Shown here one piece after another: positions 1-13,604 of a DNA stretch of 14,329 nt. Within the stretch, counting starts at the first letter, position 1. Every line of letters begins with the position of its first letter. The notes under the pieces are model-generated. The model was given only the letters and a program-made list of their open reading frames with translations. It did no database searches and had not been told where the DNA came from. Source of the DNA: an uncultured Burkholderiales bacterium (GTDB taxonomy: Bacteria > Pseudomonadota > Gammaproteobacteria > Burkholderiales > Burkholderiaceae_D); NCBI GenBank assembly GCA_903904635.1, contig CAIVDH010000179.1:1-14329 (forward strand), read 5' to 3'. The position numbers were made by a program, and so were the translations under genes.

Positions 1-306
1 GGCATCTTTTGCTTTAAAATCCAATTCTAGCTCTGGGACCAGCTTGGCTTTGGGTGCCGGCTTGGGTGTGGCCAGCGCTGCCGGCTCCGCTATGGGGTCG
101 GTGCTTAGCTCAGGCTCTATGCGCTTGCCAAATGCAACTTCAATATGTTTGGTTTTGCCCTCTTCAGCAGTCTGTTGATGATCTTGCAGCTCGCGGGTTT
201 TACCTGCGTTGTCTTCTTTGCGATTATGTTTTGCATCAACACCTTCATTGATGCCTTTTTCTTCATGCGAATTCGTACGAAAAACTTGTGATTCTTCATT
301 TGGCAT
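1..306 (-). CDS. Hypothetical hydrophilic protein, 5' part only
   Basis: An open frame begins at an ATG at 306 and stays open for 102 codons to the left edge, so only the N-terminal part is seen. A good ribosome binding site (AGGGAG, about 8 nt upstream) supports the start. The visible part is highly charged and polar (MPNEESQVFRTNSHEEKG...), then becomes Ala/Pro/Lys-rich and ends near an acidic LELDF stretch. There is no signal peptide, membrane segment or recognisable domain, so it is probably a disordered N-terminal region in front of a domain outside the window. It lies 47 nt downstream of the SPOR-protein gene on the same strand, with no terminator visible between them, so it is likely the next gene of the fliK-flhB operon. 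Its function is unknown. Confidence 0.7.
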   Translation of the reverse strand, partial: MPNEESQVFRTNSHEEKGINEGVDAKHNRKEDNAGKTRELQDHQQTAEEGKTKHIEVAFGKRIEPELSTDPIAEPAALATPKPAPKAKLVPELELDFKAKDA

Positions 307-353: not shown

Positions 354-1997
354 TCAGCGATTCTCGACCTGTAATGCCTGCTTTAATGAAGCAAGCGGTC
401 GCAACCAGGGGTTAGCTGGTATGCCAGGTTTGTTACTAAATGTCTCAGCCTCTTTGCGATTGGCAAAGGGGCCGGACAAGACTATAAATTTCACACCCTG
501 ATCGGGCGTTTTTGCCGCAGCGATCAAGCTTTTTTTCAGTGCCGCATGTTGCGCCCGCCATTCCTGTGCCTCAGACATGGAGCTTAATGACACATGCTGT
601 ACAAAAAAACTGCCGGGCCTGGCTTGCTCGACTAATTCCCTGGCACCACGTTCAGATCTGGGCGCTAAAGCATCAGCCGGGCTGGCTTCGGCCAAGGATG
701 TATTTTTTGCATCAGATTTGGCTGCAGCGTCATTTTTTGCTGATTCACCCGCCTTTACTACGGCTTCAATTTTTGCCACGGGCGGCACCGGTTTGACTGA
801 TTCGACTGGTTGCGCTGTTACTGGTGATGCTAAGCCGCTGGCATCAGATTTTGCAGGGTCGAGTTTTTCAGCAGTCAATTCTGTCTTGGTGACTGTATCG
901 GAAGATATCGCCGGAACTGTAGGGGCAGCTGTATTTTCAGCGGCAAGCGCCGGCTCGGCTGGCTTGGGCAGGGCATCAGTATCCACTATGGCTGGTGTTG
1001 GCTTTTGCACCGCGTTGGCGATGATTTCCATCATCCATGGCGGCAGGTTTTGTTTTAGCAGCGGCGAAGTGGCCAGCATGGGAACCAGGCGCTGCGGAAA
1101 CAGCAAGGCGATGATGCCCGCCGATAGTGCTATGAGCATGACGATGGCTGCTATCCAGCGCATGGTCAGGCCCAGTAGCTGGCGAGCGCGACCTGGTGGT
1201 GATGATGATTTTTCTTTATCGGCTGCTGCGGGCTTGGCGCCTGCAGGCGTGAAATTGTTGAGTACCGGCTCGGTTCGACCTTGCTGATTTTTGCCTTCTT
1301 GTTTACGCGCAGCCTCAAGCTGCTGAGCAAAAATTGGTTTGTCGGCAGGTGGCTTTTCAAATGGCTGTTCAGCGGGGATTGCTGTCTCTTTTGCATAACC
1401 GGTTGCGGCCAATAATTTTTTGACTTCGACTTCCTGGCCGTGTGCGCGCGCCAGCTGCAGCAGCGCCTCGCCTTCGGCATGGGTAGGTAATTCTACTGGC
1501 CAGCGCAACATGCGTTGCCCGAAGTTTTCCAGCGAGCGTTCATATTGTTGTCGGCCGACTTTGTCCAGCAAGAGCACGAGGGCCGTATTAGCCCCGGGAA
1601 AATCCTGGATTAATCTGGCCAGCAATTGTAATTCGCGGGGGTTGATGGCTCTGGCATCGTGGGCGATTAACACGCGCCGCGGGGCAGGTGAAGATTCGGC
1701 ATTGCGGGCATCTGTGAGGGACAAGTCAGCCAGTATCTGGTTGAAACGCTCCAGCAGGGCTTCGGTGTTGGCAGGTAAAAATACTTCAATCTGCAGATCA
1801 TGCATCTGGCGCAGCTTGTTGATGACCAGACGACCGTAATGATCGAGTATGTCATCGCTGTCGCTAGATAAAGCCAGCGATTGTGATTGCGTTTGTACTG
1901 CGCGCATCACATAGTCAAAGCGGTTGCGGTCAGACTCACGAAAAAATATGCCGCCGCTGCCAAATGCTTCAGCATTGAGATTCTGTTCGTTTTGCAT
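354..1997 (-). CDS. SPOR-domain membrane protein with degenerate AAA-like N-terminal half (DamX-like)
   Basis: This 547-residue protein has one membrane segment at about residues 281-300 and no signal peptide. Residues 1-270 should be cytoplasmic and 301-547 periplasmic. The C-terminus (about 463-543) looks like a SPOR domain: it opens with FFVQHVSLSSMSEAQEW, continues with FIVLSGPFANRKEAE and ends in a PANPWLRPLASLKQAL segment, as in DamX-type proteins. SPOR domains bind septal peptidoglycan lacking stem peptides. A long Ala/Pro/Lys/Ser-rich linker (about 335-450) spans the periplasm. Residues 65-185 resemble the later part of the AAA module of ExeA/MshM/DamX-like proteins: a hydrophobic VLIAHDARAIN stretch (109-119) sits where Walker B would be, followed by a second beta strand (139-145). 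No Walker A is present, so ATPase activity is unlikely. The ATG lies inside the flhB stop (TGATG, 1-nt overlap), implying translational coupling. A role linking flagellar assembly or placement to the cell wall or division site is inference. Confidence 0.8.
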   Translation of the reverse strand: MQNEQNLNAEAFGSGGIFFRESDRNRFDYVMRAVQTQSQSLALSSDSDDILDHYGRLVINKLRQMHDLQIEVFLPANTEALLERFNQILADLSLTDARNAESSPAPRRVLIAHDARAINPRELQLLARLIQDFPGANTALVLLLDKVGRQQYERSLENFGQRMLRWPVELPTHAEGEALLQLARAHGQEVEVKKLLAATGYAKETAIPAEQPFEKPPADKPIFAQQLEAARKQEGKNQQGRTEPVLNNFTPAGAKPAAADKEKSSSPPGRARQLLGLTMRWIAAIVMLIALSAGIIALLFPQRLVPMLATSPLLKQNLPPWMMEIIANAVQKPTPAIVDTDALPKPAEPALAAENTAAPTVPAISSDTVTKTELTAEKLDPAKSDASGLASPVTAQPVESVKPVPPVAKIEAVVKAGESAKNDAAAKSDAKNTSLAEASPADALAPRSERGARELVEQARPGSFFVQHVSLSSMSEAQEWRAQHAALKKSLIAAAKTPDQGVKFIVLSGPFANRKEAETFSNKPGIPANPWLRPLASLKQALQVENR

Positions 1998-3145
1998 CAG
2001 GCTGCAGCCTCTTCAGTTTGCAATTTGCCCAGCGCGTCGAATTGCATGGATTCTGGCACCTTAGGTTGTGGCTTGATAACGGGCGGTGCGCCAGGCGTTA
2101 TGCTGGAGAGATTAAATACATATGCAATGACTTGTGCCACTGCAAAATAGAGATCTTCCGGTACGGGGTGATCAATCTCAGTTGTAAAGTAAAGCGCACG
2201 AGCCAGTGGTGCGGCCTGGAAGATTTCTATGCCGTGTTTTTTTGCTTCTTCGCGTATGCGAGCTGCGACGGCATCTGTACCCTTGGCCAGTAAAATCGGG
2301 GCGCTGTCACCATTCGGATCATAGGAGAGGGCAACGGCAAAATGCTCCGGGTTGGTGATGACGACATCGGCATCTTTTACGCTGTCTATCATGCGGGCAT
2401 TGGACATTTCGCGCTGTCGGCGACGGATTTGGCCTTTGACTTCAGGATTACCCTCGCTTTGCCGCATCTCGTCCCTTACTTCCTGCTTGGTCATGCGCAT
2501 CTCTTTCTTGAACTGCCAGCGTTGAAAGGGTACATCTATCATCGCGATGGCAACCAGTGAAAGTGCAATAAACAAAGCCGTTTTGGCCAGCAGTTCACCC
2601 GATGTTTTCAGAGCAGGCTCTAAGGCCATGCGGCTAATCAGATTGAGTGTGTCGATATTGTTATTAAATACCAGCACCATAACGCCTGTGACGATGCTGA
2701 ATTTCAGTATGGCCTTGGCCAGTTCTACCAGCGCTTTTGTGCCGAACATGCGCTTTAATCCGTTTGCCGGGTTGAGCTTGGAGGCTTTCGGCGCTAATGC
2801 GCCCATTGCAAAAAGAAATCCGCCCGTAGCGCCCGTTGCTGCTATGGCGACGATTGCTGTGAGTAACATTAAAGGAAAAATGAGCAGGTAAGACTGAAAC
2901 AGCTCGTGTCCAAAGATAGCGGGCAAAAGATTGGCTGAGAACACCAGCTTGCGATCAAAATTAAAGCCCGACGCAAAGTTCGCAGAGAGTTTGGTGACTA
3001 AGGCGCCACCAGTTAAAAACAGCATGGACAGCGCAGCGATGGTTACGGCTGCTGCCGGTAATTCTGCAGAGCGGGCGACTTGTCCCTTTTTACGTGACTC
3101 CGAGACGCGCCGCGCGGTGGGTTCTTCTGTGCGTTCTTCAGACAT
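1997..3145 (-). CDS. flhB: Flagellar export gate / substrate-specificity switch protein FlhB
   Basis: This is a full-length FlhB of 382 residues. It starts with the family N-terminus MSEERTEEPTARR..SRKKGQVARS and has four hydrophobic membrane segments at about 31-52, 86-112, 141-163 and 186-206. A linker helix rich in Lys/Arg/Glu (KKEMRMTKQEVRDE, 213-226) leads to the cytoplasmic FlhB_C domain. FlhB forms part of the inner-membrane type III export gate and, with FliK, switches export from rod/hook to filament substrates. Family members cut themselves at an N-P-T-H loop. Here the loop reads N265-P266-E267-H268, so the Thr is replaced by Glu. Other FlhB_C signatures are present (LLAKGTDAVAARIREEAK; APPLARALY-type AAPLARALYFTTEIDHPVPEDLY). 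A Pro-rich tail follows from about residue 350. The gene begins 1 nt after the fliR stop and its own stop overlaps the next start. Confidence 0.97.
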   Translation of the reverse strand: MSEERTEEPTARRVSESRKKGQVARSAELPAAAVTIAALSMLFLTGGALVTKLSANFASGFNFDRKLVFSANLLPAIFGHELFQSYLLIFPLMLLTAIVAIAATGATGGFLFAMGALAPKASKLNPANGLKRMFGTKALVELAKAILKFSIVTGVMVLVFNNNIDTLNLISRMALEPALKTSGELLAKTALFIALSLVAIAMIDVPFQRWQFKKEMRMTKQEVRDEMRQSEGNPEVKGQIRRRQREMSNARMIDSVKDADVVITNPEHFAVALSYDPNGDSAPILLAKGTDAVAARIREEAKKHGIEIFQAAPLARALYFTTEIDHPVPEDLYFAVAQVIAYVFNLSSITPGAPPVIKPQPKVPESMQFDALGKLQTEEAAA

Positions 3146-3146
3146 T

Positions 3147-3920
3147 TCAGTTCACCAGTCCTACCAAATCACGCACATGAGAAAAGGCCTGCATCCAGAC
3201 CCACTGCATGCGGCCGACTATGCTTTCCAGAGAAACGATCAGTACGATAAAGCCTGCTGCAATGGTTGCAGGAAAACCGACGGAGAAAATATTCAGACTG
3301 GGCGCAGCGCGTGTGACTACGCCTAAGCCTATGTTGATGAACAACAGTGCGACCAAAACAGGCAATGCGATGAGCAGACCACCAATAAACATCATCGAAC
3401 TCCAGGCAATAACTTTGCCGAATGGTACCTGACCTAGTAGTGATTGGCCTATAGGCAGCACCCTAAAACTGTCGAAAACCATAGAGATAAGGATGACATG
3501 GCCACCAAAACCCAGAAATACCAGGGTTGAGAGTATCAGCAGCACTTGCGAGATAACCGGCACGTTACCCACATTGGGGTCTATCATGCTGGCCATGGAC
3601 AAGCCCATGGAGCCGGCGATGGCTTGACCCGCCACGACGATGGCGCCGGTAGCAACCTGCAGCATTAAGCCCATCAGGGCACCGATGAATAACTGGTTGA
3701 CGATTTCTAGTATGCCCTCAGCAGAGATAGGATCTATCACTGGCCAGGTCATGAGCGGATAAATAAATGCGGTGAGTACGAGTCCGATGACGATGCGCAG
3801 GCGTACGGTGAGCGAGTCGAGCGAAAAAATGGGTGCGGCCATCAGCATGGCACTGATGCGCAGCATGGGCCATAAAAACATGTAGAAACGCTCGACGATG
3901 TCCGCTGCCAGTAAGGTCAT
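3147..3920 (-). CDS. fliR: Flagellar export gate protein FliR
   Basis: This 257-residue, very hydrophobic protein has about six membrane-spanning stretches. FliR-family features include an N-terminal FLWPMLRISAMLMAAPIFS segment, a GQAIAGSMGLSMASMIDP loop with PVISQ following, and a LALLFINIGLGVVTRAAPSLNIFSVGFP-type segment in which the R-A-P-N-F pattern is intact. FliR joins FliP and FliQ in the helical gate complex through which flagellar substrates cross the inner membrane. The start has a GAGG ribosome site 8 nt upstream. The gene sits between fliQ (25-nt gap) and flhB (1-nt gap), the classic fliPQR-flhB order. Confidence 0.97.
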   Translation of the reverse strand: MTLLAADIVERFYMFLWPMLRISAMLMAAPIFSLDSLTVRLRIVIGLVLTAFIYPLMTWPVIDPISAEGILEIVNQLFIGALMGLMLQVATGAIVVAGQAIAGSMGLSMASMIDPNVGNVPVISQVLLILSTLVFLGFGGHVILISMVFDSFRVLPIGQSLLGQVPFGKVIAWSSMMFIGGLLIALPVLVALLFINIGLGVVTRAAPSLNIFSVGFPATIAAGFIVLIVSLESIVGRMQWVWMQAFSHVRDLVGLVN

Positions 3921-9926: not shown

Positions 9927-10712
9927 TCAGGGATTTGCCTGAGTTGGTGCCACAGGAACTGGCTCTGGTGGCTGAGCCACAGGCAGGGTTACAGGTGCGG
10001 CAGGCTCAGGGGCTGTTAACGCAGGTGTGGCCTCTGCGCTGGCTTCAGCAGGTGGCGCGCTAACATCCGGGGCCGCAATGGCAGCTTCTGCAGCAGCATC
10101 CGGTGCAGGTGCATCAAGTGCGAGCGGTGTTTCTGTTGCAGGTGGGGCTTCCTTATCCCAGTTAGGCATGAGCAGCTTGGAGAGCTCAACCGGTGGCAAG
10201 CCACAGGCGGGGAAAAGCATAGTGCCAATTTGATCCAGCGATGCGACGATAATCCCATGCTCAGCCTTGGGCAAGGTCGAACGGCTGTGACCGGCCCGGT
10301 AGATGCCACTGGCAAATTCATGCGGTATCCAGGAAATCATTTCGCCACGCAGGGTAGGGACTTTGCGTTCGGAAGAAATCGGCATACTGAAACCTTCACG
10401 GCCATCGAGCGTGCCATCTTCAAACAATAATTCTATGTGTTTTTGCAGCACCATTTCATAACGACTTCTAATGGTATCAATCATTGCTTCGTTATAGCCT
10501 GGCACAGGTATGCCGGCCATGGCATCCCATAGCGCTTTGCCAGAAAGGCCGAAGTAGCTAGTATCCGTGGGCGCTTGCTTGAGTCCGGACTGTATGTTCT
10601 GGTTGTGTAATGCGTTTACCCGATCCAGCAGGTAAAAGACAACCAGAAGCAGGCCGACCAAGCCCCCGAATATTAATAGCAGCAGGACGTTATTCATCTG
10701 ATGCTCAAACAT
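9927..10712 (-). CDS. Unrecognised membrane-anchored protein between fliA and fliS
   Basis: I do not recognise this 261-residue protein. It has one N-terminal membrane helix (about 8-29) followed by Asp-Arg, with no cleavage site, so it is likely a signal anchor. Residues about 50-186 look folded, with FGLSGKALWDAMAG, NEAMIDTIRSRYEMVLQKHIELLFEDG, RGEMISWIPHEFASGIYRAGH and EHGIIVASLDQIGTMLFPACGLPP as distinctive stretches. Residues about 187-261 form an Ala/Pro-rich disordered tail. The ATG at 10712 has no clear ribosome site. A second ATG at 10697, preceded by GAG, removes five residues and is a fair alternative. It follows fliA by 18 nt and appears to be the last gene of the flhA-fliA block, so a flagellar role is plausible but unproven. 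Base composition resembles its neighbours. Confidence 0.85.
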   Translation of the reverse strand: MFEHQMNNVLLLLIFGGLVGLLLVVFYLLDRVNALHNQNIQSGLKQAPTDTSYFGLSGKALWDAMAGIPVPGYNEAMIDTIRSRYEMVLQKHIELLFEDGTLDGREGFSMPISSERKVPTLRGEMISWIPHEFASGIYRAGHSRSTLPKAEHGIIVASLDQIGTMLFPACGLPPVELSKLLMPNWDKEAPPATETPLALDAPAPDAAAEAAIAAPDVSAPPAEASAEATPALTAPEPAAPVTLPVAQPPEPVPVAPTQANP

Positions 10713-11459: not shown

Positions 11460-12283
11460 TAGTCTTCTTGGTTTTGCTGAACCAGCCGTTCCATAAAAAA
11501 CTGGAGGCCGCCAGAGGCGTTGTTAATAGCTGGCAGAGTAGCCAGCGCATCAGCAAGTCGGCGAAAGTCACGCGCACCGCTACTGCCTGGTGCGAATTCC
11601 ATGACCGACTTGTATTTTTTTAAAGCACTCAATATCAGTTCATCTGCTTCTATCGAGGTAATGTATTGCAGCGATTTACCCAGAAAGCGGTCGCATACAT
11701 CATTAATCCGTCTAAACAGTTGGGCGCCTGCGGCCTGACTATCGACCATATTCGGTATCAGATAAATTTCATCAAGATCATGGTCGCGCGTCATGACTTT
11801 AATGATGCCGTAGGCGTCCGCTATTGAAGAAGGTTCATCACGAACCACAATAAAGCGTCGCTGACAGGCTTCCATAAAAGCCAGTACCGAAGGTGCGATA
11901 CCAGCGGCTGCGTCTACGATCAGGTAATCAATTTCTTCATCCAGCTCGCTAAAGGCTTGCACGATGCCTGCGGTGACAGCGGCACTCAGATCAGCCATAT
12001 GGCCTACGCCAGAGGCGCCGGGCACGAGCTTGACGCCATGGCGTGACGTGACAATGACTTCTTTCAGACTTTTTTGCCCTGAAATGACATGTGAGAGATT
12101 GAACGGCGCTTGAACGCCCAGCGCAATCTGCGCATTAGCCAGCCCCAGATCGCCATCGAGCACCATCACGCTTTTGCCCATCATGGACAGCGCTACAGCC
12201 AAGTTGACTGAGAGCGTAGTTTTACCCACGCCGCCTTTGCCGCTGGCTATGCCTATCACTTCAGTTTTGCGTTTAGCTTGCAT
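11459..12283 (-). CDS. flhG: Flagellar number regulator FlhG/FleN, MinD-like ATPase
   Basis: This is a 274-residue MinD/ParA-family ATPase. The deviant Walker A KGGVGKTT lies about 16 residues from the start, followed by LDGDLGLANAQIALG, a switch-II-like IVDAAAGIAPSVLAF and DEPSSIADAYGIIKVM. The C-terminal LQFFMERLVQ is typical of FlhG/FleN, which limits flagellum number and in Pseudomonas inhibits FleQ. The ATG at 12283 was chosen; an in-frame TTG at 12298 adds only five residues. The protein starts immediately before the ATPase fold and so lacks the N-terminal DQAxxLR extension by which many FlhG proteins activate FlhF. From memory, Pseudomonas FleN is similarly short. The start overlaps flhF by 11 nt. 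Confidence 0.95.
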   Translation of the reverse strand: MQAKRKTEVIGIASGKGGVGKTTLSVNLAVALSMMGKSVMVLDGDLGLANAQIALGVQAPFNLSHVISGQKSLKEVIVTSRHGVKLVPGASGVGHMADLSAAVTAGIVQAFSELDEEIDYLIVDAAAGIAPSVLAFMEACQRRFIVVRDEPSSIADAYGIIKVMTRDHDLDEIYLIPNMVDSQAAGAQLFRRINDVCDRFLGKSLQYITSIEADELILSALKKYKSVMEFAPGSSGARDFRRLADALATLPAINNASGGLQFFMERLVQQNQED

Positions 12284-13604
12284 GCGGCATTTTCTCAATT
12301 CGTTGGACTAGGGCCTGCGCCGCGGTCAAGATCGTATTTTCCTGTTCATGGTCCGAGGCTTCGGCACAATTCGCCATTGCGTCATCCAGTTCCAGACTCT
12401 GTATCGCCAATTCCACCAGATGCGCAGCAGAGAGTACTCTGAGCGGCGCAGACATCTTTGGACTGTCTGATGCAGCCGACAAGGCAACCGGAACCTCACA
12501 CAGCATTTGTATCAGCGGCCAAGGCTGCGTGGATTCATCCATGCGCGCTACCATCAGGCTGGCCCACTTCATATCCGGGTCTAGCAAAGTCTTGCGTATG
12601 GTGGTGGTCGATGCATCAGCCGACAAAACTAAATGGGTGGCGATATTCGATCCACATCCTACTATCTCATGTGTCCTCATGGCAACTTCTACGCCGGGGG
12701 TGTCGATTAAAATAAGTTTGCGTGTCCCCAGCTCTGAGAGCAGTGTCTTGAGTGTTTCGGGGTTGTTTGCCCGCAGGCAGTCTACGCCTATTTGCGCGCA
12801 CAACATTTGTATTTGACTCCAGGCGCCGGCACGCTGGTCGCTGTAACTTATTACAGCAACGGTATCAGCGCCTTTGCGTTCAGCCGCAGCCTTGGCTAAT
12901 TTTGCAACCATCGTTGTTTTGCCCGAGCCGGCAGGGCCAGCAATGGCATGAATACCTGATTGCGGCATTTTTGCGTGATGCTCGCCTATGCTGTTGACCA
13001 GATGTGTTTTGAGTGCAGCCGTGGCCGACTGTAAATCGTCCATATCATTAATATGATCCACCAGCAAAGTGCGCAGCGAGACAGGTATGCCTGCCTCAGC
13101 CAATGCTGCAACTAATGGTTGCACAGCAGGATGGGCGCCGGCAGGGGACTGCCACATTGCTACACGCTGAGCCAGTTTGAATTCTTTGCGCATGGCTGAG
13201 AGTTCATCTCGCACCATGTTGACGATTTCGCGACCGCGTATGTAATCACGCTGGTTGGATGCGCTATCGACAGGGTTATTGCCAGTACTATGGCTTAGCG
13301 TAGTTTCTGTTGAGTCTGATGCCGTATCTTCTGACTCGTCCATCGCTATGGCGGGGGCTGCGCTTGCAGTGGCACCGTTTTTCAGTGCTTTGAATGACTG
13401 ATTCAAGACGGCATGAAATTGCGCACCGTTACCCAGATCAGTCGGTGCTTGCACTACTTCAGGCATCACCTCTACTGCAACGATTACTTCCGTCATGCCG
13501 TTGACACGCGAATTGGAAACAAACAGGACATCCTTGCCGTAAAGAGCGACAGCTTTTTCAGTTGCCCTGCGGAGGTCTTTTGCGAGAATTCTTTTTAGTT
13601 CCAT
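12273..13604 (-). CDS. flhF: Divergent FlhF, SRP-type GTPase for flagellar placement
   Basis: This 443-residue protein has the three-part FlhF layout. Residues 1-50 form the small N-terminal B-like domain (MELKRILAKDLRRATEKAV; DVLFVSNSRVNG), with a polar linker to about 115, a helical N domain (about 120-212) and a G domain (about 215-405). FlhF normally marks the cell pole where the flagellum is built. The P-loop GPAGSGKTT (223-231) is intact. Other signatures are altered: the G2 region reads SYSDQRAG where FlhF has DxYRIGA, G3 is DTPG instead of DTAG, G4 is ARMD instead of TKxD, and the closing G5 is not recognisable. Position between flhA (11-nt gap) and flhG confirms identity. A good ribosome site (AGGA) precedes the ATG. 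GTP binding and hydrolysis are doubtful. Confidence 0.88.
   Translation of the reverse strand: MELKRILAKDLRRATEKAVALYGKDVLFVSNSRVNGMTEVIVAVEVMPEVVQAPTDLGNGAQFHAVLNQSFKALKNGATASAAPAIAMDESEDTASDSTETTLSHSTGNNPVDSASNQRDYIRGREIVNMVRDELSAMRKEFKLAQRVAMWQSPAGAHPAVQPLVAALAEAGIPVSLRTLLVDHINDMDDLQSATAALKTHLVNSIGEHHAKMPQSGIHAIAGPAGSGKTTMVAKLAKAAAERKGADTVAVISYSDQRAGAWSQIQMLCAQIGVDCLRANNPETLKTLLSELGTRKLILIDTPGVEVAMRTHEIVGCGSNIATHLVLSADASTTTIRKTLLDPDMKWASLMVARMDESTQPWPLIQMLCEVPVALSAASDSPKMSAPLRVLSAAHLVELAIQSLELDDAMANCAEASDHEQENTILTAAQALVQRIEKMPHAS

Follow-up and report, generated by a model that had tools for sequence, protein, structure and literature searches.

To our knowledge, there is as yet no good account of how betaproteobacteria position their polar flagella and fix them in place. 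Proteins of the ExeA type combine an AAA part that carries ATPase motifs, a membrane helix and a peptidoglycan-binding domain of their own. ExeA is reported to bind peptidoglycan and to take part, with ExeB, in assembling the secretin (PMC4098917). Escherichia coli DamX is a membrane protein with a linker and a SPOR domain, and residues Q351, S354 and W416 are reported to matter for its septal localization (PMC6895207). DamX and DedD are also reported to stimulate class A PBPs in E. coli (PMC7642682). FipA, which is involved in the placement of a polar flagellum, is a DUF2802 membrane protein encoded among flagellar genes, and its described parts include neither a SPOR nor an AAA+ domain (PMC11620751).

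In a freshwater bacterium, and in some bacteria distantly related to it, the core flagellum-building gene flhB is followed directly by a gene whose product resembles each of these proteins in part. The window analyzed here comprises 14,329 nucleotides from an uncultured Burkholderiales bacterium with a fragmented genome assembly (443 contigs, completeness 87.9). Its minus strand reads, in order, flhA (end), flhF, flhG, fliA, a gene for an unknown protein of 261 amino acids, fliS, fliK, fliL, fliM, fliN, fliO, fliP, fliQ, fliR, flhB, the SPOR gene and finally, cut off by the window end, a gene called D1 (Table 1). The flhA, flhB, fliS, fliL and fliK genes have Pfam matches, flhF and flhG match broader families or score under the cut-off, and the other flagellar names are presumed by us from sequence and gene order.

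The TGATG junction with flhB noted in an earlier, sequence-only reading of this DNA is present as an overlap of one base. Overlaps of 1 or 4 bases recur in all 19 genus loci measured, and outside the genus there is an overlap in three of eight loci and a gap of 2-18 bases in the other five, counts that take the start codon nearest the flhB stop and hence favor short gaps. One of the 20 related genus loci (L052) was excluded because it begins inside the gene; these loci are labeled Oxalobacteraceae, Burkholderiaceae or Burkholderiales bacterium, with a few Polynucleobacter, Noviherbaspirillum and uncultured entries. A chance open reading frame is ruled out because the window protein has 279 homologues at E <= 1e-3. 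The counts given below refer to 195 proteins, including the window's own, that combine the best 120 of these 279 with the best 120 of 290 matches, where each of the two homologue searches scored about 8000 candidates, and to a further 53 proteins that form the L058 set.

Table 1. Features of the SPOR gene and its surroundings, numbered along the window; residues are those of the encoded protein.
Feature	Residues	Position	Strand	Remark
D1, start of next gene		1..306	-	cut by window end
SPOR/pseudo-AAA+ gene		354..1997	-	547 aa
SPOR domain	461-520	438..617	-	conserved W531 just beyond
Ala/Pro-rich linker, predicted disordered	332-449	651..1004	-	pLDDT under 50; composition (333-449)
Single membrane helix region	273-307	1077..1181	-	hydropathy; model helix 270-299
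AAA+-fold domain without Walker A, presumably cytoplasmic	15-200	1398..1955	-
Walker B position	109-114	1656..1673	-	first acidic residue is His; Tyr in L058 branch
P-loop position, replaced by conserved stretch with LDHY	45-62	1812..1865	-
TGATG stop/start overlap with flhB		1995..1999	-
flhB		1997..3145	-	Pfam match
fliR		3147..3920	-	name presumed from sequence and order; order kept in related loci
261-aa protein directly after fliA	1-261	9927-10712	-	N-terminal membrane helix at residues 5-33, rest presumably cytoplasmic
FlhF		12273-13604	-	P-loop present by eye

Read from the N terminus, the protein has a domain with a predicted AAA+ fold that lacks Walker A, followed by a single membrane helix, a linker predicted to be disordered and, at the C terminus, a SPOR domain. 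The AAA+ alpha/beta fold of the N-terminal domain is confidently predicted by a structure model, the sole source for the fold, and this agrees with the AAA-like half lacking Walker A that had been proposed. Neither a strict nor a loose P-loop pattern occurs within the first 230 residues of the homologues (0/195 and 0/53), at least four of these 248 proteins being truncated upstream of the P-loop place. The LDHY motif found at this place is carried by 193 of the 195 homologues and by 50 of the 53, and four of the five proteins without it are truncated. The loose pattern is likewise absent from the 14 N-terminal domains of profile A3. As a control, six DamX-type AAA/SPOR proteins were searched, and the loose pattern was found in all six and the strict pattern in five. 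At the Walker B site the first acidic residue has been replaced, giving HD in 191/195 homologues, ND in 2/195 and YD in 47/53 of the L058 set (two and six proteins, respectively, are unmatched by the pattern). Both motif positions derive from the predicted fold and from a weak hhalign register with DamX-type proteins. The profile-profile comparison with AAA and ExeA families suggested by the sequence-only reading gave the expected register with the ExeA-like AAA_22 domain of DamX-type proteins, although with E 0.015 and a probability of 3% the match itself is weak. In Pfam, AAA_22 does not match the window protein. The N-terminal domain is apparently a pseudo-ATPase whose nucleotide-binding motifs have been lost.

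The other parts of the protein that had been read from the sequence also hold. Hydropathy and the structure model agree on a single membrane helix, and the SPOR domain (PF05036) scores 33 bits against a cut-off of 21. A SPOR match by profile and an AAA+ fold by structure prediction are both present. Residues Q467, S470 and W531 of the window protein align with Q351, S354 and W416 of DamX, and a QH motif is conserved in 195/195 and 52/53 homologues. This conservation suggests that the window's SPOR domain could bind denuded glycan. Outside the genus, SPOR is above the Pfam cut-off in none of the five proteins scanned, and no precomputed Pfam domain is listed for any of the 53 L058-set proteins. 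Because the SPOR assignment there rests on alignment, glycan binding may not be universal among these relatives. A match to RlpA (NCBIfam, 20.6 bits against a cut-off of 201) was dropped as an effect of the common SPOR domain.

Class-wide matches to the C-terminal half include six open reading frames with an AAA-like N terminus and a SPOR domain (L065-L069 and L071; L070 and L073, in which no AAA part was seen, and L072 and L074, which were not read, are excluded). These DamX-type proteins share with the window protein the AAA-TM-SPOR domain order and the placement of the AAA domain, and their SPOR tail aligns with the window's (hhalign probability 97.4%, E 9.6e-12). In contrast, all five of those scanned pass both the AAA_22 and the SPOR cut-offs, and GK[S/T] stands at the P-loop in 6/6, whereas the window protein has neither an AAA_22 match nor this motif. 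Judged by eye, they are flanked by genes for glutamate synthase, by aroB-like genes or by others, rather than by flagellar ones. E. coli DamX itself shares the membrane anchoring, the linker and the SPOR domain with the equivalent glutamine, serine and tryptophan, but it lacks an AAA domain according to Pfam, and its gene adjoins aroB and dam. At E <= 1 the window protein gives no match to NF008153, the NCBIfam model for DamX equivalogs, which rules out a DamX equivalog insofar as so narrow a model can; the model gives E. coli DamX 848.8 bits and misses or under-scores gammaproteobacterial AAA/SPOR proteins too (47.3 bits for L071 against a cut-off of 256, no match for L066). The architecture is apparently that of a DamX-type AAA/SPOR protein with its ATPase motifs lost, and the protein is not a DamX equivalog.

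Compared by description, GspA/ExeA is also a membrane protein with an AAA part and a peptidoglycan-binding part that serves a wall-crossing machine, but the window protein has a SPOR domain, has lost the ATPase motifs and is encoded in a flagellar operon. With FipA (PMC11620751), the protein has in common that it is a membrane protein encoded among flagellar genes and could link the flagellum to a site in the cell. When the literature was searched for SPOR domains or DamX together with flagellar terms, no SPOR protein appeared as a component of a flagellar operon among the matches listed, as judged from titles and the starts of abstracts; most subscription papers lie outside this coverage, and absence is unproven.

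The expectation that homologues would keep the flhB neighborhood was borne out. Counting the window's own, 21 genomes of the genus have a match, and in 20 of them the gene lies directly 3' of flhB; the 19 overlaps measured come largely from these genomes too. Among 399 sampled genomes of the order, ten (again including the window's own) were found to carry the N-terminal domain, and in nine of these, which belong to families f1, f17, f18 and f49, the gene comes directly after flhB. In the tenth carrier, G124 of family f12, the gene adjoins an LPP20 lipoprotein gene, and flgN, flgM and flgA lie 3.7-5.4 kb away on the other strand. All homologues with surroundings read are in flagellar loci rather than in division or pilus loci, and such neighborhoods disfavor a division or pilus gene. 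The G124 protein (L060:7941-9179) is a shorter pseudo-AAA/SPOR protein, beside the lipoprotein gene instead of flhB, and four FlhB-family matches occur elsewhere in that genome.

A match to the FlhB family, which includes type III secretion proteins, occurs in 286 of the 399 order genomes, among them all ten carriers, and the N-terminal domain was not found in 389 of the 399. Since most FlhB-bearing genomes lack the protein, flagella do not need it in general. The exception within the genus, G014, encodes a membrane helix and SPOR domain without the AAA+ half, beside a fliO-like open reading frame, and its flhB shares only 41% identity with the window's. That a linked flhB and the AAA+ half are missing together is consistent with docking to the export gate, but the G014 protein, seen in this single genome, may be a decaying remnant. 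G014 (L056:8405-10360, L064) has another flhB-flhA-flhF set, which is 37-45% identical to the window's in the aligned parts.

Within a sample of 60 genomes of the family, the N-terminal domain was found in two, both of genus g1, compared with FlhB matches in 55. The window flhB is 73% identical to that of the genus member G003 and 54-58% identical to SPOR-linked flhB of other families, but its identity to flhB from the family's other sampled genera does not exceed 43%. Across 18 loci (ten of the genus, including the window, and eight outside), the identities of flhB and of the N-terminal domain correlate with r 0.93 (0.85 within the genus and 0.85 outside), a value reached by 0 of 2000 permutations; co-inheritance predicts such a correlation, although plain species descent within each clade would give a similar one. 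Based on this correlation and on the pattern of flhB identities, the gene apparently belongs to one type of flagellar operon, in one lineage that runs across several betaproteobacterial families. A simple explanation would be that this operon entered the genus by horizontal transfer.

Downstream, D1 begins 28-47 bases after the end of the SPOR-gene match in all 16 genus loci read. It encodes an acidic protein of 236-465 amino acids that is rich in short repeats and has no predicted membrane helix in the four examples checked. The D1 gene of L036 (L036:7642-8805) is built from 36/72-base repeat units, and its 72-base units are 90% alike. The next gene, D2, overlaps D1 by 4 bases in 15 of these 16 loci, and in the sixteenth the contig ends. 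Its product (e.g., L036:8802-10169 and L055:6337-7440) contains a single membrane helix in each of four examples checked, and in three that were scanned no Pfam model scored above its cut-off. D2 is common to the genus and the outgroup operons: a D2-like protein with a VLDAAEVAN-type stretch or a variant of it lies downstream in L055, L057 (where a repeat-rich protein precedes it) and L059, and L083 contains the start of a D2 match. The SPOR gene and the co-linear D1 and D2 genes make up a module.

Very probably, the SPOR gene encodes a dedicated flagellar accessory protein. At its strongest, the evidence supports an accessory protein dedicated to this flagellar lineage, in which a pseudo-AAA+ platform would face the cytoplasm and a wall grip the periplasm. 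We propose that it is an accessory component of one betaproteobacterial flagellar lineage that would be produced jointly with the export gate. The AAA+-type domain, devoid of nucleotide-binding motifs, might sit in the cytoplasm beside the basal body as a docking platform rather than a motor. The membrane helix and the long flexible linker would bring the SPOR domain into the periplasm, where it could grip glycan strands stripped of stem peptides. In this way the protein might fasten to the wall either the basal body during its assembly or the neighboring D1/D2, at places where the cell has recently divided or amidases have acted. The combination of an inner half like a dead motor with a wall-gripping outer half, encoded after flhB, suggests a tie between flagellum and wall that has gone unrecognized, and we give this docking and anchoring mechanism an even chance of being correct.

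Basal-body anchoring, passage through the wall and pole marking are each compatible with the evidence. The sequence-only reading also suggested that the protein might complement an altered FlhF/FlhG system, an idea that is speculative here. It is conceivable, if rather unlikely, that the protein is a wall-opening or insertion factor like GspA/ExeA, which would recruit or hold peptidoglycan remodeling so that rod and basal body can cross, with D2 as its partner. The plan of ExeA-type proteins, the conservation of the one-helix protein D2 within this run of genes, and the P-ring chaperone gene flgA at 4.6 kb from the G124 gene are in keeping with this idea. However, the ATPase motifs of ExeA are absent from the window protein, and no hydrolase was seen within the module of SPOR gene, D1 and D2. 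A still less probable explanation is a DamX-type division protein that is expressed along with flagella, for instance to keep division in step with their assembly. DamX-type proteins have the closest architecture, and the reported stimulation of class A PBPs by DamX and DedD in E. coli (PMC7642682) would suit such a function. Furthermore, the window's genome (88% complete) has four SPOR matches, and because the other three are in open reading frames without the P-loop pattern, no second DamX-like protein was seen there. Against a division function are the flagellar surroundings of all carriers that were read (20 genus and 10 order genomes), the scarcity of the N-terminal domain in the order and, narrow as NF008153 is, the failure to match it.

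The proximity of motor genes raises the idea that the protein, with D1 and D2, is a stator or motor-rim scaffold that holds motor parts around the rotor. By eye, 9 of 16 genus loci have motB/motA-like genes farther along, and Pfam matches confirm both genes in L036 and, for motA, also in L055 and L059. Yet in the genus these genes are convergent and often separated by another gene, so they do not form one operon with the SPOR gene; they were not seen within the stretch in the other 7 of 16, partly since contigs end, and the overlap is with flhB. We regard this scaffold as the most doubtful of the alternatives. Returning to the proposed anchoring protein, it is tempting to speculate that it serves as a flagellar landmark. 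The SPOR domain might read glycan stripped during division, and the inactive AAA+ domain might receive the export gate or basal body, perhaps via D1/D2, so that a new flagellum would be placed at the new pole or fixed there. This extension is tentative and on balance doubtful. If it were true, division would leave a mark in the wall that guides the placement of an organelle, within a flagellar lineage that spans several betaproteobacterial families. With its deactivated AAA+ domain and its gene overlapping the export-gate gene flhB, this putative wall-binding protein is a concrete candidate for a factor that places or fixes flagella.

Two other products of the window can be mentioned. The 261-amino-acid protein encoded directly after fliA resembles FipA (PMC11620751) in place and topology, but it has no match to DUF2802 at E <= 1 in a Pfam profile search. 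The TIGR03499 model gives FlhF 139 bits, below its cut-off of 174, and FlhF is therefore divergent.
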